In this document: in pieces, positions 8,655-47,163 of the stretch
Layout of the letters: each line of letters opens with the position of its first letter
How positions within the stretch are numbered: the stretch's first letter is position 1
Source of the DNA: Desulfurobacterium thermolithotrophum DSM 11699
Lineage (GTDB): Bacteria > Aquificota > Aquificia > Desulfurobacteriales > Desulfurobacteriaceae
NCBI RefSeq assembly: GCF_000191045.1
Contig: NC_015185.1
Location: forward strand, 310,001 to 374,000
Length of the DNA: 64,000 nucleotides
Direction of reading: 5' to 3'
The notes under the pieces: model-generated
What the model was told of the DNA's origin: nothing
The model's database searches: none
Seen by the model: the letters and a program-made list of their open reading frames with translations, nothing else
Position numbers and translations under genes: made by a program

Positions 8655-9388
8655 ATACTCCTTGCAACGCTATAAACAAAAACCTTAGAAGCTCCGTTTT
8701 CTTTTAAAACCCTTGATATTTCATTAACTGTAGAGCCAGTTGTAAAAACATCATCAAACAGCAAAATTCTTTTTCCCCATACTTTTTCAACAACCTCGAA
8801 AATCCCTTTTATATTTTCTACCCTCTTTTCTAAGGGAAGAGAAGACTGTCTTTCTACTTTATAAGCTTTTTTAATACCTCTAACAAAAGAAATTTCAGCT
8901 CCTTTTAAAATTTCTTCACACTGGTTAAATCCCCTTTCTTTTAATTCTTCTTTATGTAAAGGTACAGGAATTACGCAATCTACTTTAGTTTGATATATGT
9001 ACTTTTGAATGTGTTCTTTTATTGTTTCTCCTATTTTCCAGCCTACTGGAAGTTTTTTTTCAAACTTTAAGGTTTTTATTGCTAAATCTATTAAATCACT
9101 GTAGATTCCAAAGTACTCTACACCATCAAAAGAAAAGCTTCTTCCTGTTTCAAGGCAATCTCTACAAGAGTAGGCTGTTCCTGGTTTTAGCTTTAATGGA
9201 TAACCACAAGTAGAACACTTTTTACCTTTGAACTCTTTGAAATAACTTTCCCAGCAGTTATTGCAGGCTATGTAGGAATGATCTAAAAAGAGAAAAGAGC
9301 CACAGACAAGACAGTATTCTGGAAAAAGCAAATCAAGAATGAAATTTCTTAAAAACTTTCCTGCAGATACTTTTCTATTTCCTCCCAA
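8651..9388 (-). CDS. comF: ComF-family phosphoribosyltransferase-like protein
   Basis: Member of the ComF/GntX family, linked to natural DNA uptake in competent bacteria; its biochemical role is unclear. It has 245 aa. Two N-terminal zinc-ribbon pairs (YCLVCG ... CNNC, then CSTCG ... CRDC) precede a phosphoribosyltransferase fold with the PRPP-loop motif LLFDDVFTTGSTVNE. The 5' end overlaps the upstream Mre11-like gene by 40 bases, so the true start may lie a little downstream. The 3' end overlaps the convergent ABC gene by four bases. Confidence 0.85.
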   Translation of the reverse strand: MGGNRKVSAGKFLRNFILDLLFPEYCLVCGSFLFLDHSYIACNNCWESYFKEFKGKKCSTCGYPLKLKPGTAYSCRDCLETGRSFSFDGVEYFGIYSDLIDLAIKTLKFEKKLPVGWKIGETIKEHIQKYIYQTKVDCVIPVPLHKEELKERGFNQCEEILKGAEISFVRGIKKAYKVERQSSLPLEKRVENIKGIFEVVEKVWGKRILLFDDVFTTGSTVNEISRVLKENGASKVFVYSVARSI

Positions 9389-15632: not shown

Positions 15633-15652
15633 TTCTCCTCCTATGAAAGATG

Positions 15653-16753: not shown

Positions 16754-16845
16754 CTCTACCCCCTGATATGTTTTGTGTTTTGCAACCTCTGCTTCGGAAC
16801 TATTCCCATACTCCAATACGGCGCTTCCCGCCACTATAATTAGCC

Positions 16846-16912
16846 GGCAGGAGGCATCGGCTAATCTCCACGCACGGGGCTTATTCCCCAGGGAAAAATC
16901 CAGCCTCCTGCC
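16846..16912 (-). ncRNA. candidate IS110 bridge RNA stem-loop (target-loop candidate)
   Basis: In the left noncoding end, on the transposase strand, GGCAGGAGGC (16912-16903) pairs perfectly with GCCTCCTGCC (16855-16846). The loop holds a small GGGG/CCCC hairpin flanked by ATTTTTCC on one side and GTGGAG on the other. These two strands resemble the CTCC/GGAG target core and its flank, as expected for the two guide segments of a bridge RNA target loop. A second hairpin (GGCG/CGCC near 16820) lies between it and the transposase start. The identity is inferred from position and shape, not demonstrated. Confidence 0.5.
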
Positions 16913-17011
16913 TTTAAAGGTTGCCTCTTTACTATAGTCCCGAATTTCAGGGGGTGACATCTTTTATATCATCTCCAGAAATTATTTAATAAGTGCAGTC
17001 TATAAGGTATT

Positions 17012-26683: not shown

Positions 26684-27940
26684 GTGGGGATAGATAAATT
26701 TGCACTCACGTTGGGACTGGGGATAGGGATAGTAACTTCCCAAGCAATAGCTGCAATCTCAGTCCCAGGATACGAAGGGGAATTAAAAACCCAGGTAGAG
26801 TTTAGGGAAGATATTAAAGATAGGAATTCTATCCCTTTTGATACTTACCTAAAGCTTGATATACGTGATTTAAAAGGAAACTCAGACCTTCATTTCTACG
26901 GAAAATTATGGAAAGATTTAGGTTACGGTACTGATTGGAATGCTGATATATATCAGCTTTTTATTGAAGTTCCTTTTGAAAATAAGCAAAGCTTTCTTTC
27001 TATAGGTAGGCAGTTTATTTCTGAAGGTTTTGAAACATATATCGCTGATACTGTTAAGTATACTCATAGACTTAAGAACGGATTGAGATATACTTTTTAT
27101 CTTGGTAAGCCTCGCTTTTTTGAACCTAATACTCCAGATGGAGACGACTTTTTAGCAGGATTTAAGTTTGATTATAAAGGGTATTTCTTTGGATTTGAGC
27201 ACCTTAGAAATGATGGAAGTGTAAAAAAGAGCTCTTTTGTAGTAGGGAACTATAAGTATTTATCAAGAGAAATTTCTTACTATACTCGCTTTGAGATAGA
27301 TGCAGCTCACGGAGAATTTGTAGATGCAAACCTTGGTTTTAACTATTATCCTACGAGAAAGCTAAGAATTAACATAGAGACAGAATACTATGATCCTTCT
27401 TATACTTACGATTCCTTTAAGTTGGAAGATCCTATCTTTTCTCTTTTTTCTTCCGGAAGACAGCTTAGGTTTACTCAAAGCAGTTACTATGATATAACAG
27501 AAAAATGGCAACTTTTTGAAAGCTATACGTTTTCTGATCTTCAGAGATCAGAAAAGGATAACGGACATCTTGCAAAAGCGGGATTTGTTAGAGATACTTG
27601 GTTTGAAAATGGTTTAAGAGTTTATGGAGCTCTTCTTTATGGAAATAGTTGGGTAGGAACTTTAAGGGGACTTGAGTTCGGCTTTACAAAGTGGATTAAT
27701 TCAAAGTTAACCTTTGTAGGAAGCGCCGATATTGCTCGTTACGATAAAATTACTTATGGAAAGCATTGGGCTAATGCCTTTTATCTAAGGGGAATCTATT
27801 CAACCACTGAATTTTCGAATCTTGAGTTTGGTCTTGAAGATAGGACAAACGAGGACTTTAAAAGAGATATGAGAGTAGTCCTTCGCTATAACTACTTCTT
27901 TTTCGGTGGAAAAGATAGAAGTAAAGAGGAAAAGAAATGA
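26684..27940 (+). CDS. predicted outer-membrane beta-barrel protein of the cytochrome operon
   Basis: 418 aa. A signal peptide (about 1-25, cleavage near SQAIAA) is followed by alternating strands rich in Tyr, Phe and Arg throughout (FYGKLWKDLGYGTDW, YYTRFEIDAAHGEF, RVVLRYNYFFFGG), typical of porin-like barrels. It is not clearly any named porin. In porin-cytochrome conduits a barrel holds a multihaem cytochrome through the outer membrane, and its first place in this operon fits that role. The start is GTG. The stop overlaps the next gene as ATGA. Confidence 0.7.
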   Translation: MGIDKFALTLGLGIGIVTSQAIAAISVPGYEGELKTQVEFREDIKDRNSIPFDTYLKLDIRDLKGNSDLHFYGKLWKDLGYGTDWNADIYQLFIEVPFENKQSFLSIGRQFISEGFETYIADTVKYTHRLKNGLRYTFYLGKPRFFEPNTPDGDDFLAGFKFDYKGYFFGFEHLRNDGSVKKSSFVVGNYKYLSREISYYTRFEIDAAHGEFVDANLGFNYYPTRKLRINIETEYYDPSYTYDSFKLEDPIFSLFSSGRQLRFTQSSYYDITEKWQLFESYTFSDLQRSEKDNGHLAKAGFVRDTWFENGLRVYGALLYGNSWVGTLRGLEFGFTKWINSKLTFVGSADIARYDKITYGKHWANAFYLRGIYSTTEFSNLEFGLEDRTNEDFKRDMRVVLRYNYFFFGGKDRSKEEKK

Positions 27941-28542
27941 GAATATTACTTCAGGTCTTAATTTTAGTTATTGCGTCAATGTACGTCTTTTCTTGCGATA
28001 AAGGAGGAAATGTTAACTATAAGAAAGAATTAGGTGCTACTGCCAAGTTTCACCATAAAGATCATAAGCATTTTATAGAAGAACATGGTTGTATTCCTTG
28101 TCATAATATGAACGTTGAAATGAGTTGGAAAGACCTTGAATCAGCAGAGAAAGGCTCAAAAAAGTTAATTATGCCATCAAAGGTTACATGTCATTATTGT
28201 CATAACAATCCCAAGTCTCCTGCTCCAAACGCTCCAAGAAATTGTTATATATGTCACTTTAATATGAAAGAAATTGAACCTGCAGATCACAAAACAGGAA
28301 ATTGGCTTAAAACTCACAAATTTGCTTATGAAGGAGAACCTAAAAGGTGTAGTGAATGCCACAGACAAAAAGACTGTATTGATTGCCATTCACAAAGAGA
28401 TGTTATACAACATCGTGTTCATCCAAGGAACTATGAGTATACTCATGGTATAGAAGCTGCCGCCGATCCTGGAAAATGTAGTAGATGTCATCAAATAGGT
28501 TTTTGTATGGAATGCCATACAAAGGGGACTTGGACAAAATGA
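27937..28542 (+). CDS. seven-haem c-type cytochrome lipoprotein
   Basis: 201 aa with a lipoprotein signal ending in VFSC near residue 20. Seven CxxCH haem sites follow: CIPCH, CHYCH, CYICH, CSECH, CIDCH, CSRCH and CMECH. Many extra His residues could act as second ligands (HHKDHKHF). Lipid anchoring, and the barrel gene overlapping upstream, suggest a periplasm-facing or barrel-embedded electron carrier. It overlaps the next cytochrome gene as ATGA. Confidence 0.88.
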   Translation: MRILLQVLILVIASMYVFSCDKGGNVNYKKELGATAKFHHKDHKHFIEEHGCIPCHNMNVEMSWKDLESAEKGSKKLIMPSKVTCHYCHNNPKSPAPNAPRNCYICHFNMKEIEPADHKTGNWLKTHKFAYEGEPKRCSECHRQKDCIDCHSQRDVIQHRVHPRNYEYTHGIEAAADPGKCSRCHQIGFCMECHTKGTWTK

Positions 28543-29408
28543 AGAAAGCTATATTGCTATTAGGTATAGTATTGAGCTTAAATAGTAATACTTTTGCTTC
28601 TGAATGTGGAGGAAAAGGATACACTGGTAAGGATAGTCGTTACTGTCTTAAGTGTCATTCTGGCTGCCCTATTGTTCATCCTGTAAAAGGAATTCTTGTT
28701 GGGGAGACTGAATGCATAAAAGTACCTTTAGGATTTCCATTGAAGAATAGAAGGTTAACTTGTACAACTTGTCATGATATGAACTCAAATAATAAAGACT
28801 TTCTGAGATCTTCTAAGCCTATAAAGAATAAAATGGATTTTTGTTTCGAGTGTCACAATCCAGCGTGTTATAAGAAATTTAATCCTCACGAAGTTATAGC
28901 TTCAAATCTACCAAAAAAAGAAAAGTTAAAAGCATGTATTTACTGCCATGGCGTTGGTGCAAAGCTTGAAGCTTATAACTCGTGTGTTGGATGTCATACA
29001 AAAACTCCTCATCTTGGAGTTTTAGAGCATATGCTTGCTCCTAGAGAAGAAGTAGAAAAACTTGTTAAGGATAAAAAGAAGGTAATAGACATTGTAAGTA
29101 TAAAAGACTTAGATCCTCGTCTTGATGAAGCAACATTAGAGTTAAGAAAGTCTCATGTTATCCTTGTAAAAGGAAAAATAGAGTGTATAACATGTCATAA
29201 TCCTCATCCTCAGATTGCAATTTCAACTAAAGCGATGGATGAAGTGTGGAGAGAAATAGAAAAAAGAGATATAGAATATAAACTTAAAAAACTTTATGGT
29301 ATTATAAAAGAATACAAAATTAACTTTCAAGGCACAAAATTTATGAGTCAAAGTTTAAGGGGTGGGCAACTATGTCAAAATTGCCACCCCATTAACTTGC
29401 TTAAGTAG
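28539..29408 (+). CDS. seven-haem periplasmic c-type cytochrome
   Basis: 289 aa from the ATG at 28539, which overlaps the previous stop; a longer frame from 28485 would lack a signal peptide. The Sec signal is MKKAILLLGIVLSLNSNTFA. Haem sites are CLKCH, CTTCH, CFECH, CIYCH, CVGCH, CITCH and CQNCH. Pairs spaced with extra His (HPVKG, NPHE, NPHPQ) resemble small tetrahaem modules. It is probably a periplasmic relay between the inner-membrane quinol unit and the outer-membrane conduit. Confidence 0.88.
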   Translation: MKKAILLLGIVLSLNSNTFASECGGKGYTGKDSRYCLKCHSGCPIVHPVKGILVGETECIKVPLGFPLKNRRLTCTTCHDMNSNNKDFLRSSKPIKNKMDFCFECHNPACYKKFNPHEVIASNLPKKEKLKACIYCHGVGAKLEAYNSCVGCHTKTPHLGVLEHMLAPREEVEKLVKDKKKVIDIVSIKDLDPRLDEATLELRKSHVILVKGKIECITCHNPHPQIAISTKAMDEVWREIEKRDIEYKLKKLYGIIKEYKINFQGTKFMSQSLRGGQLCQNCHPINLLK

Positions 29409-29418
29409 GGGGTAGAGA

Positions 29419-30513
29419 GTGAGAGCCTTCATATTAGGAATAGCAGGAGCGATGGCAATTTCAGGAACTGCTTTGGCATCAGGAATAGGTGATGACGGAT
29501 GTCTTGTCTGTCACAGATTGAAAGGTTTGTTTGCTGTAGATAAGAATAATAAAGTAAAGGATTGTAGTATTAACGAAGCACTGTATGCTCATTCTATTCA
29601 CAGAAACATAGGATGTACAGAATGTCATAATAAGATTGAGCAGTATCCTCATAAACCTGGAAATGCTGTAGTAAACTGTGCTAACAGATGTCATGTTATT
29701 GACCCATCAACTAAAAAGCCATTTTCCCATGAAAATGTTTTTAAAACATGGAAAGAAAGTGTTCATGGTAAAAACTTTGAAAAAGCTCCAGATATTTATC
29801 CCTACTGTAGCTATTGTCATACAAACAGATTGCTAGTTGACGTAAAGAAGTTTGAAACACTAGAAGGTAGTTTTAACAGATGTTCAATTTGTCACGAAAA
29901 CAAAGATTGGACATTAGATAGACTAGCTCACGTTGCAAGTAGAGAAGATATTCCAGTTATAAAGAATGGTTATATAAGCCAGTTTGTTAAAACAAGAAGA
30001 GATGGATGGGAGATTGTAGAGCTCTGTGCAAGCTGTCACGAAGATGAGAAAAAAATGGAAAAAGCTTTAGAAATAGAAGGAATACACAATAAGTTTGCAA
30101 AAGAACATGTTTTAACAGCTGTTGAGTCATATAAAGTAACAATGCACTCTAAGATGCTTTACTTAGATAGAAGTGATACAAGAGCTGCAGATTGTCTTGA
30201 TTGTCATACAAACAAAAACGGTAACTTCCATGATATCTTCCATAAAGAAGACCCAAGATCGTCAATAAATGAAAAGAACATAGAGCTTACATGTGGAAGA
30301 GCTACAGAGTGTCATCCACTTGCACCTATAAAGGACATGAAAAAGTTTGCGACTACAAAATGGGTTCATATGCATCCAGTGCCTGACTCTCTTGGACAGA
30401 AAATAGTGAAGATTGTAGAAGAGTTTATGTTCTGGCTTACCACAAGCGTTTTACTCTTTGGGGTAGTTATAATAGGACTTGATCTTCTTAAAAACTTGAG
30501 GAGGAAGCACTAA
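29419..30513 (+). CDS. membrane-anchored multihaem cytochrome c (6 canonical + 2 unusual haem motifs)
   Basis: 364 aa, GTG start, signal peptide (cleaved near ALASG) and a C-terminal membrane helix (FWLTTSVLLFGVVIIGLDLL). Canonical haem sites are CLVCH, CTECH, CSYCH, CSICH, CASCH and CLDCH. Two spaced variants may also bind haem: CANRCH (CX3CH) and CGRATECH (CX5CH). The gene overlaps the cytochrome b gene. The pair resembles a split Cbc-type quinol:cytochrome unit, with the haem domain in the periplasm passing electrons from cytochrome b. Confidence 0.85.
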   Translation: MRAFILGIAGAMAISGTALASGIGDDGCLVCHRLKGLFAVDKNNKVKDCSINEALYAHSIHRNIGCTECHNKIEQYPHKPGNAVVNCANRCHVIDPSTKKPFSHENVFKTWKESVHGKNFEKAPDIYPYCSYCHTNRLLVDVKKFETLEGSFNRCSICHENKDWTLDRLAHVASREDIPVIKNGYISQFVKTRRDGWEIVELCASCHEDEKKMEKALEIEGIHNKFAKEHVLTAVESYKVTMHSKMLYLDRSDTRAADCLDCHTNKNGNFHDIFHKEDPRSSINEKNIELTCGRATECHPLAPIKDMKKFATTKWVHMHPVPDSLGQKIVKIVEEFMFWLTTSVLLFGVVIIGLDLLKNLRRKH

Positions 30514-31445
30514 TGGGTCTCTGGGAAGTAATAAAGAAAAGATTCAGAATAAGACCTGAACAAGATAAGCTACTTATCGTCGACGGTGAAAAGATAATGA
30601 TACAGAAGTTTACTCTGTATCAAAGATTACTTCACGTTGGAATGTTTGCCACCTTCATTTGGCAGGTTATAACTGGATATCCTCTCAAGTTTTATGATAC
30701 TGCATGGGCAAAGCCATTAATAGAGATTCTTGGTGGTGTTTCCGGAGAAATGACAATTCATAGGATTTCTGGTTTTATAATGTTTAGCGATTTCCTTCTT
30801 ACAGTTCTTTACGTAGTACTTCTTTTAATTGTTAACTGGGACTTGGCAAAAAAAGACTTTTTTGGTTACTTTAAGCTAGTGCCTGGACCGGCAGATGTTA
30901 CTTTTATTCATTATGTAAAGTACTTACTTGGTTTTAGGAAGGTTCCGCCAGACTGGGATGAGTATATTTGGGTTGATAAATTTGATTTCTGGGCAGTTGG
31001 TTGGGGTATGCTTGCAATTGGTATCACTGGTTGGATACTCTGGCTTCCAGAAGTATTTACTGGCTACCTTGGATTACCTCCTGAAACAATACAGATAGCT
31101 TATCTCATGCACTCTGATGAGGCTACATTAGCTCTTGGATGGATTGCCCTTGCTCATATGTACATGGTTCACTATGGTCCTAACAAATTCCCAATGGATT
31201 GGATTTGGCTATCCGGAACAGCTTCTGAGATTGAGTGGATAGAGGAAAGACCAAGAAGTTACAGAAGAATCATTAAGGCTGTTGCTGAAAATGAACCACA
31301 TCTTCTTGAAAAGTATCCATTCTTAAAGGAACGTTATCAATTTGTCCTTGAAGTTGAGAAATTGCCTGAAGAAGAGATGATAGAGAAGATGCACGAATAT
31401 GCTCATCATCTCCTAGAGAAGGAAGTTGAAGGGAGGAGTGCATAA
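30513..31445 (+). CDS. cytochrome b (dihaem b-type quinol oxidoreductase subunit)
   Basis: 310 aa integral membrane protein of the cytochrome b561/hydrogenase or formate-dehydrogenase gamma type. Four main helices are visible with likely haem b histidines: LLHVGMFATFIWQV, MTIHRISGFIMFSDFLL, the helix at WGMLAIGITGWILWLPE, and LALGWIALAHMYMVHYG. The charged N- and C-terminal tails are probably cytoplasmic. It overlaps genes on both sides (TAATG). Likely role: oxidise (or reduce) menaquinol and exchange electrons with the preceding anchored cytochrome c. Confidence 0.85.
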   Translation: MGLWEVIKKRFRIRPEQDKLLIVDGEKIMIQKFTLYQRLLHVGMFATFIWQVITGYPLKFYDTAWAKPLIEILGGVSGEMTIHRISGFIMFSDFLLTVLYVVLLLIVNWDLAKKDFFGYFKLVPGPADVTFIHYVKYLLGFRKVPPDWDEYIWVDKFDFWAVGWGMLAIGITGWILWLPEVFTGYLGLPPETIQIAYLMHSDEATLALGWIALAHMYMVHYGPNKFPMDWIWLSGTASEIEWIEERPRSYRRIIKAVAENEPHLLEKYPFLKERYQFVLEVEKLPEEEMIEKMHEYAHHLLEKEVEGRSA

Positions 31446-32164
31446 TGAGAAGATATCTGATAGCTGCTTTTCTAATATCAACAGTGGCGGTGGCTGCTGA
31501 GAATCCTCTTCTTACGGCTCCGTCTAACAATGCTAGTGAATGGAGTAAGAAATTAAAAGATTTTGAAAAGCCAGAAATGCCTGATCTAAAAGAATACCCT
31601 AAGCCTTTTCACTCTCCTAATAGCTATAAATACAGAGTAAATGATGTTTGCGTGGAGTGTCATACATTTGCAGCACATAAAAAAGATGAAAAGTATGCTC
31701 CTTTCTATAATGCTCATTCAACATTTATGAGCTGCAATACTTGTCATTTTGTTAAAGAAGGAGTTACATATAAATGGGCCGAAATAGTAGATGGAAAAGT
31801 TGTTCTAAAAGAAAAAGGTGACTTTTATGGACTTAGATACATTCAGGCTGGTGATAGAGTAATGCTCTCAGGCCAGGACAGCACTGCCAAAATAGTTCCT
31901 GTTTATAAAGGTGTTCCTGTTGAGATTCCTTTAGAAGGAAATGAAAGTTTACTAAAAGATGTTAAAGCTATTGCCAGTATGCATAATGCTCTTTCTAATG
32001 AGCCTCTTAGATGTGATGATTGTCACAGAAGAAATGGAAAAATGGATTTTACAGCTTTATGGTTTAGTCCTGATAGAGTAGATGATCTTGAAAAAAATGA
32101 AGTTGTTGAAGGTTTGAAAGAATACAAAGTAATTCATTTTCCAAAATTCATTTGGCAGGAGTAG
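31445..32164 (+). CDS. three-haem periplasmic c-type cytochrome
   Basis: 239 aa with a signal peptide (MRRYLIAAFLISTVAVAAE) and three CxxCH sites: CVECH, CNTCH and CDDCH. A haem-free section of about 90 residues (KWAEIVDGKVVLKEKG ... VPVEIPLEG) separates the second and third. The layout resembles cytochrome c552/NapC-family-associated small cytochromes, but no named family was recognised. It overlaps the cytochrome b stop and is followed by the propeller gene. Confidence 0.82.
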   Translation: MRRYLIAAFLISTVAVAAENPLLTAPSNNASEWSKKLKDFEKPEMPDLKEYPKPFHSPNSYKYRVNDVCVECHTFAAHKKDEKYAPFYNAHSTFMSCNTCHFVKEGVTYKWAEIVDGKVVLKEKGDFYGLRYIQAGDRVMLSGQDSTAKIVPVYKGVPVEIPLEGNESLLKDVKAIASMHNALSNEPLRCDDCHRRNGKMDFTALWFSPDRVDDLEKNEVVEGLKEYKVIHFPKFIWQE

Positions 32165-32170
32165 AGAGGA

Positions 32171-32971
32171 ATGAGATTTTTAATGTTGTTCTTCATTTTA
32201 ATTTTCTCAGTAGCAGCTTCTGCAGGGGAAATAAAAGGAGATTGGAAGTTTCCTTCCGATATTGCTGTTTCTAGTAACAAGTTATATGTGGTTGACGGTT
32301 TAAATAATAGAATAGCCATCTATAACTTTAATGGAGAACATATATCAGATATAGAAATTGATTCTCCGTTTGGAATTTACGTTGATAAAAAAGGTTTTCT
32401 TTATGTAACAAATCAAAAAGGTATAGTCTACGTTTTGGATAGTCTTGGAAATCTTAAAGAGAAAATTAATGTTAGTGGTAGACCAATAGACATAGTTAAG
32501 ATAGGAAATAGACTCTTTATAACTAATGGAAAAACAAATACTATAGATGTTTATTCAGAAGATGGAAAGTTTATTAAAAGACTGGGAGGAAAAGGATCTG
32601 CACCAGGTTACTTTGTAGGTCCTTTTATGATGGATAGATCAAGGAATCTTATTTATGTGGTTGACTCAATCAACGCAAGAATTCAGGAATTTGATAAAAA
32701 AGGAAATTTTGTTAGATCTTTTGGTGTCTTTGGAGTTGAAGAAGGAAGTTTATTTAGACCTAAAGGAGTAGCTTTTTGTAATGGTAATCTAGTTGTAACT
32801 GATGGTATAACAGGTTCTCTTCAGCTCTTTAATATATATGGTGCTTTTGAAAAAGTTATTACAAAGAATTTATATTATCCAACAGCTGTAGCCTGTTATG
32901 ATAAAACCGTTTTTGTACTGGAACCTCTTAAGAATAAAGTTTCTACATTTAAAATTCAAGGGGTTAAATAA
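32171..32971 (+). CDS. exported NHL-repeat beta-propeller protein
   Basis: 266 aa. A signal peptide (MRFLMLFFILIFSVAASA) is followed by about five or six NHL-like blades, each with a pattern such as FPSDIAVSSNKLYVVDGLNNRIAIYN, SPFGIYVDKKGFLYVTNQ and FVGPFMMDRSRNLIYVVDS. NHL propellers serve as protein-protein scaffolds and recur near multihaem cytochrome genes of metal-reducing bacteria. No haem motif is present. It overlaps the giant cytochrome gene as TAATG. Confidence 0.83.
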   Translation: MRFLMLFFILIFSVAASAGEIKGDWKFPSDIAVSSNKLYVVDGLNNRIAIYNFNGEHISDIEIDSPFGIYVDKKGFLYVTNQKGIVYVLDSLGNLKEKINVSGRPIDIVKIGNRLFITNGKTNTIDVYSEDGKFIKRLGGKGSAPGYFVGPFMMDRSRNLIYVVDSINARIQEFDKKGNFVRSFGVFGVEEGSLFRPKGVAFCNGNLVVTDGITGSLQLFNIYGAFEKVITKNLYYPTAVACYDKTVFVLEPLKNKVSTFKIQGVK

Positions 32972-35900
32972 TGAGGAAAACCTTAGCAGTTCTGCTTAGT
33001 GTTCTTATACTACCTTCTGTTTCTGAAGCTAAGCTCAGTAAGACTATGAGACAGGAATGTCTTGTTTGTCATGAGAATTGGCTTTTAGAAGAAAAAATAG
33101 ATTCGTCTTCTTTGCTTACCACTAACTCTATTCAAGCTGCAGATAAACTAATGTGTCTTTCTTGTCACGATGGTTCACTTGCAGATGATAGGTTAACATT
33201 TATAGGTTTTGGACATTTTTCTCATCCAGTTGATAAGAAAATTCCTAAGGATTTTAAACTACCAAAGGACTTTCCTACAAAAGATGGGAAGCTCTACTGT
33301 GGAACGTGTCATACTCCACATACAAAAGCAGGAAGTGAGAAAAAACTTGACTATACTTTTATGAGAAAACAGAATAAAAATTCTTCTCTTTGCATAGACT
33401 GTCATAAAGAGAATGCTGCTCATGGAATGAACCACCCTATACTTGAAGATACTGCCGGCAAATTAACTTCAACAGAAATTTTGAAAATTAAGAATATTGG
33501 TGGAAAGGTTACCAAAAATAACGAAGTTCAATGTGAATCTTGTCACTCAGCACACAGAGGAAAGGCAAATTATGCTCTTGTTGAACCATTAGCAAATTCT
33601 CAGTTATGTACTGCATGCCATACTCAAGAACTTAACAGTAAAGAGCATGTTAACCCAAGAAACCATAAGATTCACGTAAACATTCCAGAGTATATGACTG
33701 TAACTGAATTTATTAGACAAAGGCTTCCACAAAATACTGTTGAATGTTTTACATGTCATAAAATGCATAAAGAACCTAATCCTAATTTAACAGTTCTTTC
33801 GGCCAATGAACTTTGTTCTTCATGTCATACAGCTGAAAGTCCTGTAGTTCATTCTCCTCATAATAAAGATAATCGCGGTTGTTTAATGTGTCACACTGCA
33901 CATAAAGCAAAGACCGACGAGTACTTATTTGCTGTAGTACCATCTTCAACTGGAGGATATAAGAATTACGATATAAGTAGTAGAGTGTGTGTTTCCTGCC
34001 ATAATGGAGGTATTTCAAAGGTAAAAGTTGGTCCGGCAACTGCATCTCACAGAGGGGAATGTACAGATTGTCATAATCCTCATATTTGGGATCCTAATAA
34101 TCCAAATAAAAAAGTTTCTGTTAATGCAAAAGGAACTCCTCGAAATAGTTTCCTTAAGATCAGTAGTCCTGAACTTTGTATAATGTGTCATGGTAAACGT
34201 AGTGTAGAAGGAACTTTCCATGACTTTTCAGGTAAGAAGATAAAGGTTAAGAATGTTTTAGGAGAAAGAGTATCTCAGGCTGGTCTATGTGAATCATGTC
34301 ATGCTCCTCATAAAGCGGTTGGACCTTATTTATGGGGTGTAAAACTTTCAAGATCTGCAAAGATATATGCTAAAAAGTTAGGCATAAAGGATAGTTACAG
34401 TAAAGCTTGCTTGTCTTGTCACTATCCAGGAGGAATAGGAGAAGATATTGGTAAGATTTCTCATCCTGTAGGTAAGAAACTGCAAGCCAAGACTGATTTA
34501 CCTCTCTCTAAAACAGGAATTATGACATGTAGTACATGTCATGATCCTCACAAGTGGACTTCTATTGAAGGTTCTAAGTCTAAGGCGGCAACCAGCTTCC
34601 TACGCGTTCCAGAATGGAACTTATGTCTTAAGTGTCATTCCAATAAGAGTGGAGTCTTAATAAATGCTCACTCAGATATAAAAGATGTTAACGTCTTAGG
34701 AGAAACTCCTGATAAAGCTGGTGTATGTGCTGCATGTCATGTTCCTCATAGGGCGGTTGGAAGATTCTTAAGAGGTATTGGAGATTTTTCTTCCAAGGAA
34801 AAGGAAGGAGATTTTTGCCTTGAATGTCATGGAAAAGATGGAATAGCTAAAGACAAGGTTATGGGATCTTCTTATCCAGATCATCCTATGAATATTGAAA
34901 ATCCTTCAAAGGAGCTTCCAGGTAAGCTAATTACCTGTTTTACGTGTCATGATGCTCATTCAACGTTAGAGTTTATGCTTAGAAAGTCAGTTGCTAATGA
35001 TTCAGCTCTTTGTCTTACTTGTCATAAAGGCAAAGATACAAAGGGAACTTCTCACGATTTTTTGAAAAAAAAAATTTTGCCCCCTCAGGAAAGGATAAAG
35101 ATAAAGGAGAGAGGTAAGTGTTCTGGTTGTCATACTCCTCATAATCCAAAGTTTAAGCTTTTGTGGAGTAGAGACCTTGGGGAGGGAGAGACCATTAATA
35201 TCAAAATGTGCGGCTCTTGTCATACTAAAGGAGGTATTGCAGGAAATAAGACAGTAGGAGAACATACACATCCAATAGGAAAAAAAGTTAAATCTCCTGA
35301 AAGTATAAAGTTGGTGGAGTATTCAGGATTACCACTTATTGATCAAACAACTGGTTGTCCTGTAAAAAATGGAAAAAGTGGTTTAATGGACTGTGTAACT
35401 TGTCACAATCCGCATAATGGAGCAGATAAAGAAAGATTAATCAGGTATCCGATAGAGGGAGATAGTAAACTTTGTATATCTTGTCATACACAACAAGCAA
35501 GAGTAATAGGTACTGATCACGATATGAGAGTTGTAAATAAGAATTTTAAAAATGTTCTTGGTAAAGATGTCTTAAAGGATGGAGTTTGTTCTGCATGCCA
35601 CGTTCCTCATAGAGCAAAAGATAATTTGCTATGGGCTATAGATGTTAAGAGGATTACAGATAATAAACTTTCTAATTATTGTTTAACTTGTCATTCTGAA
35701 GATGGAATTGCAAAAGAAAAGAGTATCAAGTACTATTTTCATCCTTCAAAGAAAGAAGGTATAGTTATTAGGGATATGGATAGGCCAGGTAGAAGTGGAG
35801 ACTGGCCAATCTATGATGAAAGCGGTAAAAGAGTAAAAGTAGGTGGTCAGATAACTTGTGAAACATGTCATAATCCCCATATATGGAGTAGATGGAGTGA

Positions 35901-36048
35901 TAGAGGACCTGGAAAACCAGTGGAGGGAAATATAACAAATAGCTTTTTAAGAAATGATCAATTAAAGGGAAGTATTTGTGTTGATTGTCATGGAATAGAG
36001 GCTCTTTATAGATACAAGTTCTTCCACTCCAAAAATGTACATCATTAA
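32971..36048 (+). CDS. giant 28-haem c-type cytochrome
   Basis: 1025 aa, signal peptide (cleaved near VSEA), and 28 CxxCH sites counted by eye, about one per 36 residues, spread over the whole chain. Repeating modules have the forms CxxCHxPH...RxSFL and GVCxACHVPHRAxGRFLRG, for example CESCHAPHKAVGPYLWG, CAACHVPHRAVGRFLRG and CSACHVPHRAKDNLLWA. The protein therefore grew by duplication of 4-6-haem units. The PH after CxxCH supplies likely axial ligands. There is no membrane anchor or C-terminal sorting signal. It is probably a secreted or surface electron wire ending the operon's path. Confidence 0.9.
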   Translation: MRKTLAVLLSVLILPSVSEAKLSKTMRQECLVCHENWLLEEKIDSSSLLTTNSIQAADKLMCLSCHDGSLADDRLTFIGFGHFSHPVDKKIPKDFKLPKDFPTKDGKLYCGTCHTPHTKAGSEKKLDYTFMRKQNKNSSLCIDCHKENAAHGMNHPILEDTAGKLTSTEILKIKNIGGKVTKNNEVQCESCHSAHRGKANYALVEPLANSQLCTACHTQELNSKEHVNPRNHKIHVNIPEYMTVTEFIRQRLPQNTVECFTCHKMHKEPNPNLTVLSANELCSSCHTAESPVVHSPHNKDNRGCLMCHTAHKAKTDEYLFAVVPSSTGGYKNYDISSRVCVSCHNGGISKVKVGPATASHRGECTDCHNPHIWDPNNPNKKVSVNAKGTPRNSFLKISSPELCIMCHGKRSVEGTFHDFSGKKIKVKNVLGERVSQAGLCESCHAPHKAVGPYLWGVKLSRSAKIYAKKLGIKDSYSKACLSCHYPGGIGEDIGKISHPVGKKLQAKTDLPLSKTGIMTCSTCHDPHKWTSIEGSKSKAATSFLRVPEWNLCLKCHSNKSGVLINAHSDIKDVNVLGETPDKAGVCAACHVPHRAVGRFLRGIGDFSSKEKEGDFCLECHGKDGIAKDKVMGSSYPDHPMNIENPSKELPGKLITCFTCHDAHSTLEFMLRKSVANDSALCLTCHKGKDTKGTSHDFLKKKILPPQERIKIKERGKCSGCHTPHNPKFKLLWSRDLGEGETINIKMCGSCHTKGGIAGNKTVGEHTHPIGKKVKSPESIKLVEYSGLPLIDQTTGCPVKNGKSGLMDCVTCHNPHNGADKERLIRYPIEGDSKLCISCHTQQARVIGTDHDMRVVNKNFKNVLGKDVLKDGVCSACHVPHRAKDNLLWAIDVKRITDNKLSNYCLTCHSEDGIAKEKSIKYYFHPSKKEGIVIRDMDRPGRSGDWPIYDESGKRVKVGGQITCETCHNPHIWSRWSDRGPGKPVEGNITNSFLRNDQLKGSICVDCHGIEALYRYKFFHSKNVHH

Positions 36049-36602: not shown

Positions 36603-39600
36603 TTAGTGTTTCTTTCTTCTAAATCTTAAGCCTAATGCTCCAAGAGCCATTAAGAAAAAGTTAAGAATTCCTGAAATTGGGGATACAGCTGGAGCAATGG
36701 AACATCCACCTCCACCAGTAGCAGTAGTTGTCGTTGTTTGAGGATAACTTTCTGTGGAAGCAGTTCCTACAATAGCAAAATAGCTAAGTGTAGAACGAGA
36801 GAATGTAACGTAAGGATTATTAGAGTCTACATCAAAATCTCCAATCTTAGTCCAAGTTTTTCCATCTTCACTGGTAAATAAGGAAACCTTTCCAGTAACT
36901 TTTGTTGGATCATAAGGAAGTGTTATCTGAATTGGAGAATTAAATCTGTTTGTTTTTGTATGAATATGAAGAATTTCAGAGGCAAGTACAGGAGTTTTTA
37001 TTCCCTCTTTTGATGCTTCTTCTAGCACGGAAGACTGTAATTCTGGAACTTCGGCTTTTTCTACTTTAATTATAGTTGGAACATCTACAGCTCCAGGTGA
37101 TACAGAAATTACTATGCCTTCTTTGGATACTGTTCCTCCTTCTCTTGTAACAAGAGCGAAGGCAGCGTATTCCTTGCTTTCAACTGGAACAGATTCAAAC
37201 TGGGCGAGAGCTCCCTGAGTTAATCCCATTATTTCTCTGCCATCTGGAGTTTTGACAGTAGTAACTCCTTTTGGCACATGCCAACCACCGTAAGCTTTTG
37301 ATTCTTTAATAGCTTTATCTGGAAGAGCAAATGGAACAAGAGTTACAAATCTTCCAGCGTTAAAGTTTCCACTTTTCACAGCTGGACTGTACCTGTTCTT
37401 TGATTCATCTGAATTGTGGCACGCATTACAGGAGAGAGGACCTGACTTTTGAGCTCCAAGACCATATTTAGCTGGAAGAACTCCGTGATCAACACCAAAT
37501 GGAGCTATTCCTAAATATATTACAGGATTATGAGAATGGTTTGGATCTTCCTTGTTGAGAACCTGTGTTAAAGCTTCTTTCATAGCATCGTATTCATAAT
37601 CGCTATCAATTTCTGGCACCATATCTCCGTCGTTATCATAAATAAACTTACCATTTATTAGCTTAACTGCTGCTACCATTCCTGTGTCGTTTCCATTTAA
37701 GTCTTTCATAGATATAGCAGGTTTTCCGGTGTCAGCTTGAGCTTGAGAAACTGGAGCCATAGTTATTGCTGGAACTTCTTTTTGTGGATCTTCAGGGTCA
37801 ACTGTGGAGCGACCAACAGGTTTTCCTGTAGTTGGATCAACTGCTAATCCTTTAACAGCAGCATTAAGTTCTCTAACAAATAAAACTCTTCCTGTAGATG
37901 CATCCATCCAGGTTGCAACTGTAATTGGATTAATTAAACCTGCTTTTACGACATCATTACCATTATCGTCAATTGTATGTCTCCTTACTATTGCCGGTGC
38001 CCATCTCCATGGGAAAAGGAACGGCTTCATTTGCGGATCAGCACCTGTTGCCCACATGCCAAACATAGTGCCGTTATCATTCCATCTCATTAGAGCTCTA
38101 TATGGATCCATATCTATCATTGTCATAGGAACAATTGCATCTCCACCGTCATTAGTCGTCTGAGTAATCGTAAAGGCATAGTTAACACCGTAAGTCGGAG
38201 ATGGAGAGAATGCAGGAATAGCCCATTCAGGTGGGAACTGATACATTGTTACATTTCCATTGTCCACTACAAACTTCATAAATCTATTGTCAAATTGGCT
38301 GGAATAACCTACAAGATCGTTGAAAAATCTAAAGCTCCAGTATGTTTTATAAGGAACATGGCAAACCTGACACATCATAGAGTTTATGTGAACTGAAGCT
38401 GCCGGTCCAAAGTAAGCTTCGTGTTCCTTAGCTGCAGCAGCATCAGAACCCCAGTGACACTTTGTACAGGTCTGAAGTGAAGGATTGTAGTCAAGTGCCG
38501 GCATTACCTCACCTGCAGGATCATTTCCTTTCAAGAAGTTATGAGGATTGTGATGTAATTTTTCTTCATCAGAGAGATTGTCTTGACCGTGACAGGAAAG
38601 ACAAGAAAGGTTTCCTTTATCTGCTGCAAAGTGAACATCATATCCAGAGGGAAGTCCTGCAGTAGCGTTGTTCGGATCAGCTATTGTTCCATCTGGATTC
38701 ACAAATATTGGAGCATCTGTCGTATTACCCTCTGTTTCTCTGCTAAAGACGGCAGCTCTTTTCACAACATCAGCACCCATTCCAATAATTCCACGTCTTA
38801 CGTACCAAGATGGGTGGCTCTTGCCGTTCATATCAAACCATCTGTTGCCCTCATCTGGTATTGCAAAGTGACACTGGGCACACATCAGAGTAAGTTCGTC
38901 ATCTTTCCTATCTGCAGGTAAAGATTTGCTAACTCCAGCTTCTTTTGAACTATCTGCTTTACAGAGAGTATAGTGTCCACTCGTTTCAAGAATTGGCAGC
39001 TTGACACTCGAAAGATCAGCATCCGTTGCATAGTAAGCAACAGCCTTAAACGTTCCATCTTCCTGCTTTTCAAGTTTTACAAAAGCCAGAGGTTTGGAAG
39101 GATCATCGGGATGAGCAACTCCCATTAAAGTTCCAGTGTCAGCCCAACCGAAGAAGAAACCAGCTCTTCCAAGGTTTACGAACGGCTTTGGATTACTTGT
39201 ATCCATTGGATTGTAAGAGAACATGTCGTTTATTGTTGTAGCTCTAAGGAACATACCAGCGCCGACGTATGGTTGACCTTCAACTGTTGATTCAAAGAAA
39301 GCATTTCTCAAGTAATCTCTTGCAGAGAAGTTTGGAGCTCCAGGGTCGATGAAGAAAGTGGAAGTGAAATTACCAAGAGCTGGAGCAGTTGTATTATTCA
39401 TGGTACAGATGGTTGAGTTATCTGCAGGATTCACTATGTTTATGTTGTAATCTGGGCTATAAAGGTCTCCTTTTCTTATGGCTTCTGTTAACTGAGAAAC
39501 TACGATTGTTCTTAATGTCATGTTATCAGCAGCGTTTATATTTTCCAAACAGTTTGTAATCTCTTCGTTATAATAAAGGTTTATTATTCTTTCTAAAGGA

Positions 39601-40595
39601 TTAGAGTAAAACGCCACTGAGTCTATTGTGTAATTATTACTAATTTCGGTGGAATTTAAACTTGGTGGAAAACCAAGTGAAATTTCAACAACTTTTCCTT
39701 CTGCATCTTTCTTTTCAAAAATAAAAACTCTTGGATTAGCAGGTGTAGGATTGTCTGCAGTCCACATACCAGACTGAACAGATTTATTCTGACCTCTATC
39801 AGCATGACATAAGAAACAGTCTGTATCAAGGACTCCGGACTTCTTCCAGTTAAACTTATGGGGTTTACCTAAGTAACCTCTTGAGTATTCATCTGGAGTA
39901 TAAGAAAATGCGTCACCATCCACTTCACTATCGCTGTAAGTTGCATTTGAGAAGAATCCAGTTCCATCTTTAGCATCATCCCAGTCTGATACTTCATCAT
40001 GTCTTTTCCCTGAATCTCTATCAAACTCCATAATTCCACCAGAGTGACAAGAAGCACAGGTAAATACTTTATCCGGTGTTCCCTGATCCATATCGTAAGC
40101 AACATTACCTCTAAAATCTGTTTCGTTATTTACGTCAGGTGCTAAACCTGGATCTTCAGATGGTTTCTTTGCCGCCAACTGGCGGTAAGAAGGTGGTCAC
40201 CATGCTCCATCATCACCAAAAGAGCGAAGGAATTTTCTATAATCTTTTCCTTCCTTAACTCTTTCTGCTCCAAAATTATCTGCTAATTCATTCCATCCAC
40301 GACCTATGTGATAGGCTGCATGAACAGGACCTGGAAAGTGAACTCCACTAGTTACATCTCCCGTTATTTCTTTGTGACAGGCACCGCAAGTTGCTTCCCA
40401 ACTTACAGGTTTTCCCTCGCAGTATTCTTTGTTACCAATTTTTATACACTTGCTTGTGTCGAGGGTAATCGGGTTACCGTCAATATCCTTGAGCGGTACA
40501 GCTGGATGTGGATAAGCTGAAGAGGAATATGCAAGAGTTCCCATTGTAAAAAGGGAAGCTAAGGAAAGAACCTTCCTTAAAGATTTTGAAGCCAT
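36603..40595 (-). CDS. eight-haem surface cytochrome c with in-frame UGA (candidate selenoprotein)
   Basis: One frame of 1331 codons from ATG 40595 to 36603, interrupted only by TGA at 40199-40197 (codon 133). The N-terminal part has a signal peptide and haem site CGACH (70-74), ending GDDGAW. The frame continues PPSYRQLAAKKPSEDP with seven more haem sites: CASCH, CFLCH, CAQCH, CLSCH, CTKCH, CQVCH and CNACH. Just after the UGA is a SECIS-like hairpin. The downstream part alone would start at a TTG with no Shine-Dalgarno and no export signal. A long calcium-like or beta-rich region and a C-terminal tripartite anchor (GGGGCSIAP, hydrophobic span, RFRRKKH) follow. A plain stop or sequencing error is the alternative. 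Confidence 0.78.
40164..40199 (-). promoter_or_regulatory. SECIS-like hairpin directly after the in-frame UGA
   Basis: On the mRNA strand, UGA is followed by CCACC, then UUCUU-A-CCGCC, loop AGUU, then GGCGG-CA-AAGAA. That makes two stacked five-pair stems with a small internal loop. The loop has G as its second base and begins 16 bases after the UGA. As known for bacterial SECIS elements, the apical loop lies about 16-37 bases downstream and carries a G in its first two positions. Confidence 0.62.
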
Positions 40596-40740: not shown

Positions 40741-41865
40741 TGTTGAAGTTCAGATAGAAGGTGGACACCCTAAAATAACCTTTGAATCCCAGAAGGAGGT
40801 GTCCACCGATGAAACAATTGAAAAGATTCAAAGGAACATCCCTCCATATATCAAGCACAAATACAGCATTCAAAGAAACCCTGAAAGAAGGAAGAAGAGT
40901 AAAAAAGAAACTTGACCTAACAAAAGACAGAAATGTTAAAAGGAGACTCAAATGGATAGAGTATTACCACAAAACAGGCAACGCCAGAAAAACATGCAGA
41001 TACTTTGGCATCAGTCCAACAACCTTCTACAAGTGGAAAAAAAGATACGACAAGTACGGGATAGAAGGACTCCAAGACAGAAACAAAAGACCTCATAAAG
41101 TAAGACAACCCCAAACAGAACCTGAAATAGAACACATCATCGTCACAATAAGGGAAAAATTCCCAACCTGGAGCAAAGAAAAGATAGCAGCCTTCATGGA
41201 AAGATACCTAAATGTAAAAATATCATCCTCTACAGTTTACAGGGTTCTCAAAAGACACGGACTAATAGAAAGAACCTGGAAACTAAAAAGTACCTACAAG
41301 AGGAAGAAACAGAAAGGGAAAAAGAACCGCACCAGAAAAGGACTAAGAGCAGACAAACCAGGAACAATCCTCATGGACGTTAAATACCTCTACTGGTGCG
41401 GTAAAACCTTTTACCAGTTCACGGCAATAGACAAGTTCACCCGAATAGCATTTGCCAAGGTTTATTCTACAAAAAGCAGCAGGAGCGGAAGAAGGTTTTT
41501 TGAAGAACTTGAAAAATTTCTTCCCTTCAAGATAGAGAAAGTTCAAACGGATAACGGGAGCGAATTTTTAGGGGAGTTAGACGAATATCTTAAAAGAAAA
41601 GGGATAGAACACTACTTTAGTTATCCGAAATCTCCCAAGACTAATGCGCATGTAGAAAGGTTTATTCAAACGACAGAAAGTGAACTATGGATGATAGAAG
41701 GAACAGAACCGACTGTTGATGAGATGAATAAAAAACTTTTTGAGTATTTAAAGATTTACAACTTTCTTAGACCCCATCACTCTTTAAATTACAAGACTCC
41801 CGCTGAGAAGTTTGAGGACTATATTAGAAGTCATCAAGGTGTCCACCATGTATTGAACTCGAACA
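40741..41865 (+). mobile_element. IS481-like insertion sequence, complete copy
   Basis: 1125 bp. The left end TGTTGAAGTTCAGATAGAAG leads into GGTGGACACC. The right end, inverted, reads TGTTCGAGTTCAATACAT and GGTGGACACC, so the inverted repeats are about 28 bases and imperfect. There is no clear target duplication (AAAAG on the left, GATAC on the right). It ends five bases before the -35 box of tRNA operon 2. Confidence 0.9.
40760..40807 (+). promoter_or_regulatory. inverted repeat masking the transposase ribosome-binding site
   Basis: GGTGGACACC (40760-40769) and GGTGTCCACC (40798-40807) are perfect inverse complements. The second arm overlaps the Shine-Dalgarno GGAGG (40795-40799) of the transposase. 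A transcript entering from outside would fold and hide the site. A transcript starting inside the loop would not. Confidence 0.55.
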
Positions 41866-41939
41866 GATACTTGACATTAAAAAATAACTTCCTATATTAT
41901 TCACCGTCCAGTAAGTGCCGGCTTAGCTCAGCTGGCTAG
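40809..41939 (+). CDS. IS481-family transposase (complete)
   Basis: 376 aa from ATG 40809, chosen over a TTG at 40782 because GGAGG sits nine bases before it. An N-terminal helix-turn-helix (KTCRYFGISPTTFYKWKKRY) and a second HTH region (STVYRVLKRHGLIERTW) precede an integrase core with Asp (MDVKYLYW), Asp (TDNGSEF) and Glu (HVERFIQT). The frame lacks a stop within the element. It runs past the right end at 41865 through the tRNA promoter and into tRNA-Thr before stopping, adding about 24 host-derived residues. Confidence 0.9.
   Translation: MKQLKRFKGTSLHISSTNTAFKETLKEGRRVKKKLDLTKDRNVKRRLKWIEYYHKTGNARKTCRYFGISPTTFYKWKKRYDKYGIEGLQDRNKRPHKVRQPQTEPEIEHIIVTIREKFPTWSKEKIAAFMERYLNVKISSSTVYRVLKRHGLIERTWKLKSTYKRKKQKGKKNRTRKGLRADKPGTILMDVKYLYWCGKTFYQFTAIDKFTRIAFAKVYSTKSSRSGRRFFEELEKFLPFKIEKVQTDNGSEFLGELDEYLKRKGIEHYFSYPKSPKTNAHVERFIQTTESELWMIEGTEPTVDEMNKKLFEYLKIYNFLRPHHSLNYKTPAEKFEDYIRSHQGVHHVLNSNRYLTLKNNFLYYSPSSKCRLSSAG
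41871..41898 (+). promoter_or_regulatory. promoter of tRNA operon 2
   Basis: TTGACA (41871-41876), 16-base spacer, TATATT (41893-41898), 18 bases before the first tRNA. It matches the promoter of tRNA operon 1 in both boxes and spacing, and likewise has an IS481-like end immediately upstream. Confidence 0.78.
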
Positions 41940-45171: not shown

Positions 45172-45807
45172 CTACAAGATAGCTTTAATTTTATCTACTA
45201 TTGGTTTTATGATTGAATACTTGGTTTTAAGGCTTGCCTTGTTTACTATTAATCTTGCTGTTGAGTAAAGAATCGTATCTACCTCTTTTAAGCCATTTGC
45301 ACGAAGTGTTGTTCCAGTTTGAACAAGATCAACAATTCTATCTGAAAGTCCAACAAGAGGAGCTAACTCTACAGAACCATAAAGAACTATAATTTCAGGA
45401 TGAATTCCTTTGCTTCTGAAATACCTATCAGTAATTTTGGGATACTTTGTAGCTACTTTAATAAATGAAAGTTTTTCGATATCGTAAGGTTCTTCTATAT
45501 TTTCAGGCTCTGCAACAGAAAGTCTACAGCCACCAAAACCAAGATCTAAAGGCTCATAAAGATCATATCCTTTTTCTTCAATAACATCTTTTCCAGCAAT
45601 TCCTATGTCTGCTGTCCCATAATAGACATAAGTTGGTACGTCCATAGGTTTTACAAGAATAAACCTATAATTTTCCCATTCAAATATTAGTTTTCTTGTC
45701 TCCTTTAAAGTTTCAGAAGCATCTATCCCTGCCTCTTTAAGAAATTTAACCGCATCTTTTAAAAGCCTACCTTTAGGAAGAGCAATTGTTATTTGGTTGT
45801 AGTTCAT
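45172..45807 (-). CDS. hisG: ATP phosphoribosyltransferase, short form
   Basis: First enzyme of histidine synthesis. It has 211 aa, so it is the short HisG that needs the HisZ regulatory subunit, which is not in the window. Motifs are IALPKGRLLKDAVKFL, GTADIGIAGKDVI and the PRPP-binding DLVQTGTTLRANGL. The start is set at the ATG at 45807. The 16 in-frame residues upstream (MQPLCWGLTSFIG and three more) come from the IS110 end. The insertion splits hisG from murA, which probably preceded it in one operon, and rebuilds AGGAG before hisG. Confidence 0.93.
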   Translation of the reverse strand: MNYNQITIALPKGRLLKDAVKFLKEAGIDASETLKETRKLIFEWENYRFILVKPMDVPTYVYYGTADIGIAGKDVIEEKGYDLYEPLDLGFGGCRLSVAEPENIEEPYDIEKLSFIKVATKYPKITDRYFRSKGIHPEIIVLYGSVELAPLVGLSDRIVDLVQTGTTLRANGLKEVDTILYSTARLIVNKASLKTKYSIIKPIVDKIKAIL

Positions 45808-45830
45808 ATTTCTTTCTCCTATGAAAGATG

Positions 45831-46933
45831 TCAACCCCCAACACAGAGGTTGCATTTATTTTCAACAAAATCCATAAATTGCCTTCTCTCTCTCAAAACT
45901 GCGAACATTACTTTAACCAATTTCCTCGCCGCAGCTATCAGCGCTTTCTTCTTCTCTAAACCTTTCTTAACTAACCCTTCGTAAAATCTTTTAACTGAAT
46001 TGTCTAACTTGCTGTTCAATAACGCTCTCGTAGCCTGGATAATCTTGTTCCTCGTTCTGCTGTCCCCTTTCTTTGTTATCCTTCCATTTCTAACTTCGTC
46101 TCCACTGCTATTAGCACGAGGAACAAGTCCAAAATAAGCCGCTACCTTGTCTCCGTTTTCAAACCTCTCTTCGTTACATACGGCAGATATAAAGGCTATA
46201 GCTACTATATCTCCTACTCCAGGTATGCTTTTTAGAAGTTCTACTTTTCCCTTAAGCTCCTCATCTTCTCCTATAAAACTCTTGATATCTTCTTCTGTCT
46301 CTCTTATCTTATCTGTTAAGTATTCTATTGTTTCTATTTGCCTCCATATCGTTTCTCGTAATGACGGAGGCACTTTCTTCTTCGTTTCTTCCTTTATCCT
46401 TTCCATCCCTTTCTTCGTGGTGAGTTCTCTCTTGTTTGTCTTTATCCCATATTCAAGCAATAGGCTATGAAGTCTGTTAATTACCCCTTTTCTCATATCT
46501 ACAAAGCTATCTCTCTCTTTCATCTTTATCCTTAGCTCTTTTTCTTTTCTCGTCGGGACGTAAACTGTCGGAAGTAAGCCCATTTCATAGTAAATGGCTA
46601 TCGTTTCTGCATCTATCCTGTCGTTTTTAGCACTGTTAACACCTTTTAGAATGTTCTTAAATTTGTTAGTGTTAACGTAAGTTATTTCATCAACGCAGTT
46701 CCTTATCTCCTCCGTAAAAAATGTTACTCCTGTTAAGGTTTCTACCGCAACTTTTACTGAATATCCTTTTTTCCTAAAAGTTGTTAGGTGATTTTTAAAT
46801 TTCTCTAACTCTTCTGCTTCGTACTTCTTGGTATTAAGTATCCCTGTCAGACAATCTAAATAAAGCTGCTGTAAAGCTGTTTTTGTGGTAGTCCCACTCC
46901 GACATACAGTGTTTTCTCTACCTTCTCCTTCAT
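45831..46933 (-). pseudogene. IS110 transposase, frameshifted copy
   Basis: Nearly identical to the intact copy at 15653-16753. Compared with it there is one extra C in the run near 46892-46895 (CCC against CC) and one extra A near 46861-46864 (AATAAAGC against AATAAGC). The net +2 breaks the frame after about YVGV. An in-frame remnant begins at Met near 46583 and reads to the end. One substitution also differs (RANSSG against RINSSG). It is probably inactive unless supplied in trans; both indels are in short homopolymers, so assembly error is possible. Confidence 0.82.
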
Positions 46934-47023
46934 CTCTACCCCCTGATATGTTTTGTGTTTTGCAACCTCTGCTTCGGAACTATTCCCATACTCCAATACG
47001 GCGCTTCCCGCCACTATAATTAG

Positions 47024-47092
47024 CCGGCAGGAGGCATCGGCTAATCTCCACGCACGGGGCTTATTCCCCAGGGAAAAATCCAGCCTCCTGCC
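47024..47092 (-). ncRNA. candidate IS110 bridge RNA stem-loop, copy 2
   Basis: The left noncoding end is identical to that of copy 1 by eye, with the same GGCAGGAGGC/GCCTCCTGCC stem and the same loop strands. A guide RNA from this copy would direct the transposase made by copy 1. Confidence 0.45.
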
Positions 47093-47163
47093 TTTAAAGG
47101 TTGCCTCTTTACTATAGTCCCGAATTTCAGGGGGTGACATCTTTTATATCATCTCCTTTAATC

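Follow-up and report, generated by a model that had tools for sequence, protein, structure and literature searches.

Does the single in-frame TGA that interrupts a long cytochrome frame of Desulfurobacterium thermolithotrophum end a small protein, or is it decoded as selenocysteine (Sec) within a large one? In the window, i.e., the whole 64,000-nucleotide stretch of DNA analyzed here, this frame spans 1330 residues on the reverse strand (36603–40595), and its only in-frame TGA is codon 133. An ATG at 40595, preceded by AGGAGGT, opens 132 codons leading to the TGA (40199–40197), beyond which the same frame stays open for 1197 more codons to a TAA at 36603. The original prediction had read this layout as a Sec-containing cytochrome with eight haems, and its coordinates, haem count, loop sequence, and spacing, along with the 132-codon frame and its 1197-codon continuation, were all correct when frame and motifs were re-analyzed. 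In the mechanism that we propose, a SECIS hairpin with its loop 16 nt downstream would direct UGA codon 133 to Sec, and the product would be one 1330-residue, exported, and probably surface-anchored octahaem selenocytochrome.

Gene and protein architecture

The eight CxxCH motifs are distributed on both sides of the UGA, one upstream and seven downstream (Table 1), and third-position G+C is nearly equal in the two parts (26.5% upstream vs 26.4% downstream), so that both look coding. If the UGA were a true stop, the gene would yield a small monohaem protein, and the downstream frame would be a pseudogene or a separately started protein. Standard annotation would indeed split the gene here, and a signal peptide and one haem motif are already contained in the upstream part by itself. 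However, the downstream half keeps its haems and its frame across genera while having no export signal, its only early in-frame start is TTG 40178 (both as originally described), and the sequence PPSYRQLAAK comes directly after the UGA, ahead of any start codon. In addition, the codon is TGA in 27 of 27 homologues and never TAA or TAG, and distant homologues replace the stop by Cys and other residues, which together make termination at this codon extremely improbable. As a control, the window's nine other genes of ≥200 codons that end in TGA were extended past their stops, and these continued in frame for only 0–17 codons.

The C-terminal tail resembles those of surface-sorted proteins, and its layout is common to all full-length homologues of groups A, B, and C (see below), although the matches to CTERM models were below cut-off for the window protein (JDVT-CTERM, 14.3 vs 27 bits; MYXO-CTERM, 14.6 vs 20 bits). 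The export signal and this conserved anchor-like tail suggest that the protein is exported and located on the outer surface.

Table 1 Features of the selenocytochrome locus (window coordinates).
Feature	Coordinates	Strand	Basis
Octahaem selenocytochrome gene, TGA read as Sec (predicted)	36603..40595	-	ATG preceded by AGGAGGT; single in-frame TGA; TAA stop; homologues 61–67% identical along length
N-terminal export signal, about residues 1–31 (MASKSLRKVLSLASLFTMGTLAYSSSAY...)	40503..40595	-	Sequence; homologue N-termini similarly basic-hydrophobic
Haem 1 CGACH, residues 70–74	40374..40388	-	CxxCH motif; invariant in 30-row alignment A5
Sec codon UGA, residue 133 (predicted)	40197..40199	-	TGA in 27/27 spanning family homologues; Cys TGC in one distant homologue (L102)
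SECIS hairpin, core UACCGCC-AGUU-GGCGGCA at 40187–40170	40165..40191	-	Codon invariance of residues 137–141, covariation, fold
Haem 2 CASCH(SGG), residues 180–184, proposed Sec133 partner	40044..40058	-	Both cysteines gone in Asn/Asp branch
Haem 3 CFLCH, residues 260–264	39804..39818	-	CxxCH motif, alignment A5
Haem 4 CAQCH, residues 572–576	38868..38882	-	CxxCH motif
Haem 5 CLSCH, residues 665–669	38589..38603	-	CxxCH motif
Haem 6 CTKCH, residues 710–714	38454..38468	-	CxxCH motif
Haem 7 CQVCH, residues 742–746	38358..38372	-	CxxCH motif
Haem 8 CNACH, residues 1056–1060	37416..37430	-	CxxCH motif
C-terminal GGGGCS + hydrophobic stretch + RFRRKKH	36606..36716	-	Resembles GlyGly/MYXO/JDVT-CTERM surface-sorting tails

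Conservation of the UGA in close homologues

Of the 136 genomes analyzed from the phylum, 17 contain homologues, and all 17 belong to the same family. The homologues form two paralogue groups: group A, which includes the window gene and is 61–67% identical along the length, and group B, at about 38%. All 27 copies that span the site contain exactly one TGA, within a conserved motif, G-[AG]-W-U-PPSYRQLAAK, that was found in every copy covering the site, i.e., the residue aligned with W-U-PPSYRQ is retained as Sec, with Cys in one distant homologue. The occurrence of the same in-frame TGA in paralogues with only ~38% identity is decisive against sequencing error or gene decay. Seven more distant or paralogous genes also have an in-frame UGA, including those of group C, a third paralogue group in the home family with the motif GKL-U-PPAYRQLAP.

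Group C proteins are 819 aa long with eight haems and a predicted Sec in GMYGKL-U-PPAYRQLAP, and a further group in the home family, group D, has eight haems or more, a Ser in place of Sec, and an intact haem 2 (groups C and D loci: L092:7575-10034 (-), L094 near 7367-9706 (-), and L114). A contig scan with the motif back-translated using Cys codons (WCPP) returned 15 confirmed loci, all on Desulfurobacteriaceae contigs and mostly on contigs of TGA copies, which provides a limited negative for close Cys relatives. No homologue was detected in the plasmid collection.

RNA-level constraint on the SECIS hairpin

A hairpin with an AGUU loop, 16 nt from the UGA, had been noted in the original prediction, and our analyses indicate that it is real, conserved, and covarying. 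It lies directly 3′ of the UGA and has the small, G-containing loop looked for in a selenoprotein gene. Folding of the segment from the UGA to +39 yields −12.1 kcal/mol, a value that none of 200 shuffles equalled; however, the folding z-score was just −1.1 when other limits were chosen for the hairpin segment, and because it varies with these limits we rejected folding energy as sole evidence for a SECIS.

We then evaluated codon usage across the 27 genes, in which 228 columns are invariant at the amino acid level, 218 of them degenerate. A single codon is used in all rows at only 7 of these 218 columns, five of which follow one another directly: Y137 TAC, R138 CGC, Q139 CAG, L140 TTG, and A141 GCG. 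Beside this run, the codons for the flanking Pro, Ser, Ala, and Lys differ among rows, and the mean number of codons per invariant column is 2.8 for Arg, 4.9 for Leu, and 3.5 for Ala (means include the SECIS columns). The RNA-level constraint thus falls exactly on the hairpin. Since the TGA and its motif are conserved in 27 of 27 homologues, and no run of invariant codons occurs in the gene other than that of the SECIS, a chance hairpin is excluded.

When hairpins were aligned on their invariant GCC-AGUU-GGC core, four of seven stem pairs had changed on both sides, one of them occurring as C-G, G-C, and U-A, and the covariation score exceeded those of all 500 shuffles and all slid registers. 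This covariation derives from distant members (8 distinct rows), as the stem is invariant across the A and B paralogues.

Sec machinery in the genome and phylum

The original prediction called for a search of the genome for selA, selB, selD, and tRNA-Sec. In the complete, single-contig genome (1,541,968 bp), all four are present above curated cut-offs: tRNA-Sec at 80.2 bits (cut-off 47), SelB at 443 bits, SelA at 637 bits, and SelD at 373 bits. The selD gene has an in-frame TGA itself and encodes a Sec-type SelD; this second selenoprotein of the genome (L047, G000:C1:1530198-1531124) reads ASG-U-GAKLS, followed by a hairpin GAGCCC-GGUC-GGGCUU whose GGUC loop offers an in-genome comparison for the AGUU hairpin. 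Across the phylum, tRNA-Sec was found in 56 of 136 genomes, including relatives without the cytochrome gene, and 15 of the 17 cytochrome-bearing genomes had a match. It was not found in the other two, G120 and G135, probably due to assembly gaps in these multi-contig, MAG-like genomes.

These results also bear on whether the UGA could be read as Trp or Cys by a near-cognate tRNA, or be a sequencing error. UGA readthrough as Trp is known generally, but the TGA is common to independent genomes and phyla, no homologue with Trp at the site was found, and the SECIS constraint and full Sec machinery account for the UGA. Moreover, 9 of the 43 long genes in the window terminate with TGA, indicating that this codon is not reassigned. 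We therefore consider such decoding, or an error, very unlikely. Taken together, the Sec machinery, the universal TGA, the codon constraint and covariation of the SECIS, and the Cys homologue described below support Sec insertion at UGA 133 as originally predicted, with a probability that we estimate at roughly 97%.

Distant homologues and a proposed Sec–haem 2 site

Distant members of the superfamily were recovered when genomes sampled from other phyla were searched with profiles. Sec-type sites were identified in G369 (GAW-U-PPSYRQLAAK, with an identical 17-nt SECIS), in G305 (GRW-U-TPAPIFRQLAKK, in a protein with a C-terminal cytochrome b), and in G309, G527, and G531 (GK[TW]-U-PPS...SQLARK), all of them from phyla other than that of the window. 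The Cys homologue, L102 in G666, has TGC at the Sec position (W-C-SPAPLYRQLAPKK) and CAGCTCG in place of CAGTTGG, with loss of the hairpin. In the tree, L102 is sister to the Sec-bearing G305 protein (support 100/97), and the two represent, as judged from sequence, a classic Cys/Sec pair. We hold with high confidence that a Sec-containing octahaem cytochrome family, whatever its substrate, extends across several bacterial phyla.

Six further homologues have Asn or Asp at the Sec site, each with xxxRHVGGGP in place of the haem-2 motif CxxCHPGGGP. Three of these genes (in G179, G696, and G233) adjoin model-confirmed TIGR04315 octahaem tetrathionate reductases (522–566 bits), while similar eight-haem genes were recognized by eye next to the G681 gene and the second gene of G666; no eight-haem neighbor was seen within the stretch examined for G687. 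A further relative that does not include the Sec/haem-2 region, in G322, also adjoins a TIGR04315 protein. Some of the non-Sec relatives with a lost haem-2 CxxC beside octahaem tetrathionate reductase genes (L093:2757-8629 (-), L103, L105, L106, L109, and L111) are fused to cytochrome b, and at L093 two YeeE/YedE-like transporter genes (identified by eye) come next.

In one branch Sec and both haem-2 cysteines have disappeared together, which suggests that a single active site is probably formed by Sec and haem 2. Sec had originally been placed near haem 1: it does follow haem 1 in the sequence, but this joint loss points to haem 2 rather than haem 1 as its functional partner. Most simply, haem 2 and Sec (or Cys) would act together as a single functional site, dispensable when a neighboring enzyme catalyzes the reaction. 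The coupling is however imperfect, as group D has Ser yet keeps haem 2. On balance, we lean towards Sec133 and haem 2 forming a catalytic site.

Structure prediction did not refine this picture. An AlphaFold model of residues 1–775 (22 rows) reached a pLDDT of 42 and was discarded, and a model of the N-terminal domain (30 diverse rows) reached 69, with low values around Sec; neither was good enough to locate Sec beside a haem. A Foldseek search of the N-terminal domain model against the PDB returned nothing credible, and the profile of this domain had no sequence match in the PDB.

Comparison with known cytochrome and selenoprotein families

No NCBIfam or Pfam model reached its cut-off on the window protein, the best matches being short multihaem stretches. 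NCBIfam release 20 contains no full-length model for this family, which argues against an earlier description of it. The original prediction had stated that no selenocytochrome family was described; one is, namely ExtKL of Geobacter (NF040886, cyt_C_like_Sec), an exported multihaem c-type selenocytochrome with one predicted Sec that is linked to extracellular electron transfer (PMC5877670, PMC13188914), although it is distinct from the family of the window protein. The window protein is likewise an exported multihaem c-type cytochrome with one predicted Sec. However, the Sec of ExtKL lies after the last of five haems, whereas the window protein has eight haems and Sec133 between haem 1 (70) and haem 2 (180), in W-U-PPSYRQLA. 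A genuine ExtKL, identified in G535 (L115, G535:C30; 581 bits to the ExtKL model), has its five haems at 543–744 and then Sec 810 in GHSIPDG-U-PTPNR (read-frame numbering). The ExtKL model (cut-off 250 bits) had no match at E ≤ 1 to the window protein, nor at E ≤ 0.01 to five superfamily members. We therefore rejected ExtKL membership, as the Sec position, its motif, and the size of the protein differ and NF040886 is unmatched.

Membership in TIGR04315 was rejected as well, given a score of 25.2 bits (cut-off 375) for a local match of 99 residues over haems 5–7. Both have eight c-haem motifs, and non-Sec superfamily members are encoded beside true TIGR04315 proteins, but the Sec-bearing N-terminal domain has no match to the model, the window protein is far larger, and haem spacing differs. 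OmcA/MtrC decahaem cytochromes are also surface-exposed multihaem reductases but have ten haems and no Sec; their models matched weakly over haems 5–7 (TIGR03507, 18.2 vs 209 bits; PF22113, 29.5 vs 30 bits), and the TIGR03507 score led us to reject this assignment. Finally, the UshA-like (seleno)protein family NF041198 carries a CxU motif (PMC13188914), unlike the W-U-PPSYRQLA of the window protein, and its model matched only the multihaem part of the G305 protein, weakly (25.6 vs 275 bits), and not the window protein.

A 2026 selenoprotein inventory includes ExtKL, GSU2204, the UshA-like family, and one TIGR04315 record annotated in GenBank as a selenoprotein (PMC13188914). As far as could be tested, none of these four fits the Sec site of the window protein. 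The literature found names ExtKL and one uncharacterized octahaem record as Sec haem proteins, and included no study of the Sec site; two other selenoprotein surveys examined do not mention cytochromes. By its sequence features, the window protein is thus a predicted selenocytochrome of a family separate from ExtKL and without a curated model in the libraries searched.

Gene neighborhood and candidate function

Window positions 26684–36048 (+), convergent to the selenocytochrome gene, hold a cluster that looks like an electron conduit: it encodes five multihaem proteins, of which one has 1025 aa, together with a barrel-like protein, a membrane protein of the cytochrome b561 type, and a protein with NHL repeats. 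Mobile elements are also present. An integrase-type transposase at 40782–41939 (+), with a shorter second copy at 134–649 (+), begins on the opposite strand ~190 bases ahead of the selenocytochrome gene, and may influence the promoter of the latter. Two near-identical IS110-like copies (14196–16960 and 45172–47140, the second split into two frames) each lie just upstream of a housekeeping gene (der-like GTPase and hisG-like), whose predicted N-terminus gains MQPLCWGLTSFIG.

As a tentative but favored function, the protein may be a surface reductase of sulfur compounds. Sulfur–sulfur bonds (polysulfide/S0, thiosulfate, or tetrathionate) would be reduced outside the cell, with the Sec133 selenolate attacking or ligating the substrate, and electrons arriving via the other seven haems with haem 2 as donor. 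Nearly as likely, the protein could instead be a surface conduit to minerals or to metal and metalloid acceptors (Fe/Mn oxides, selenite, or tellurite), in which Sec would serve for binding or redox tuning without S–S chemistry. Exported multihaem proteins often reduce metals, the other selenocytochrome, ExtKL, is linked to selenite and Fe(III) (PMC5877670), and the G369 gene comes after genes for a cytochrome with 12 haems and for a barrel-like protein that matches no Pfam model. On the other hand, proteins of the tetrathionate reductase family are the closest functional association detected, and in three relatives the A or B gene sits among housekeeping genes, outside any conduit operon, with a PpiC-type prolyl isomerase gene close by (B in two, A in one). 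Furthermore, Desulfurobacteriaceae are known as sulfur/thiosulfate or nitrate reducers and are not known as metal reducers. The prolyl isomerase (L079:9775-11067 (+), L076:7407-8672 (-), and L077:8144-9388 (-)) is possibly a folding helper of the selenocytochrome.

Returning to S–S bond reduction, a broader and more doubtful proposal is that these proteins may represent a multi-phylum haem enzyme class, in which Sec at a c-haem (haem 2) would act as nucleophile or iron ligand in the extracellular reduction of S–S bonds or similar acceptors, and the relatives beside octahaem tetrathionate reductase would have lost the active site and become electron donors.

Significance of the family

Sec in a haem protein is very rare, and the recurrence of this site in relatives from several phyla marks an apparently undescribed kind of selenium-containing cytochrome. 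As annotation pipelines probably split such genes at the UGA, these proteins are likely missing or truncated in databases. At a single position, the family provides a natural comparative set (Sec, Cys, Ser, or Asn/Asp, in forms that have or lack haem 2), which makes the role of selenium beside a haem directly testable. If its members respire sulfur compounds at the cell surface, they would represent a previously unknown terminal reductase for hydrothermal-vent chemolithotrophs.
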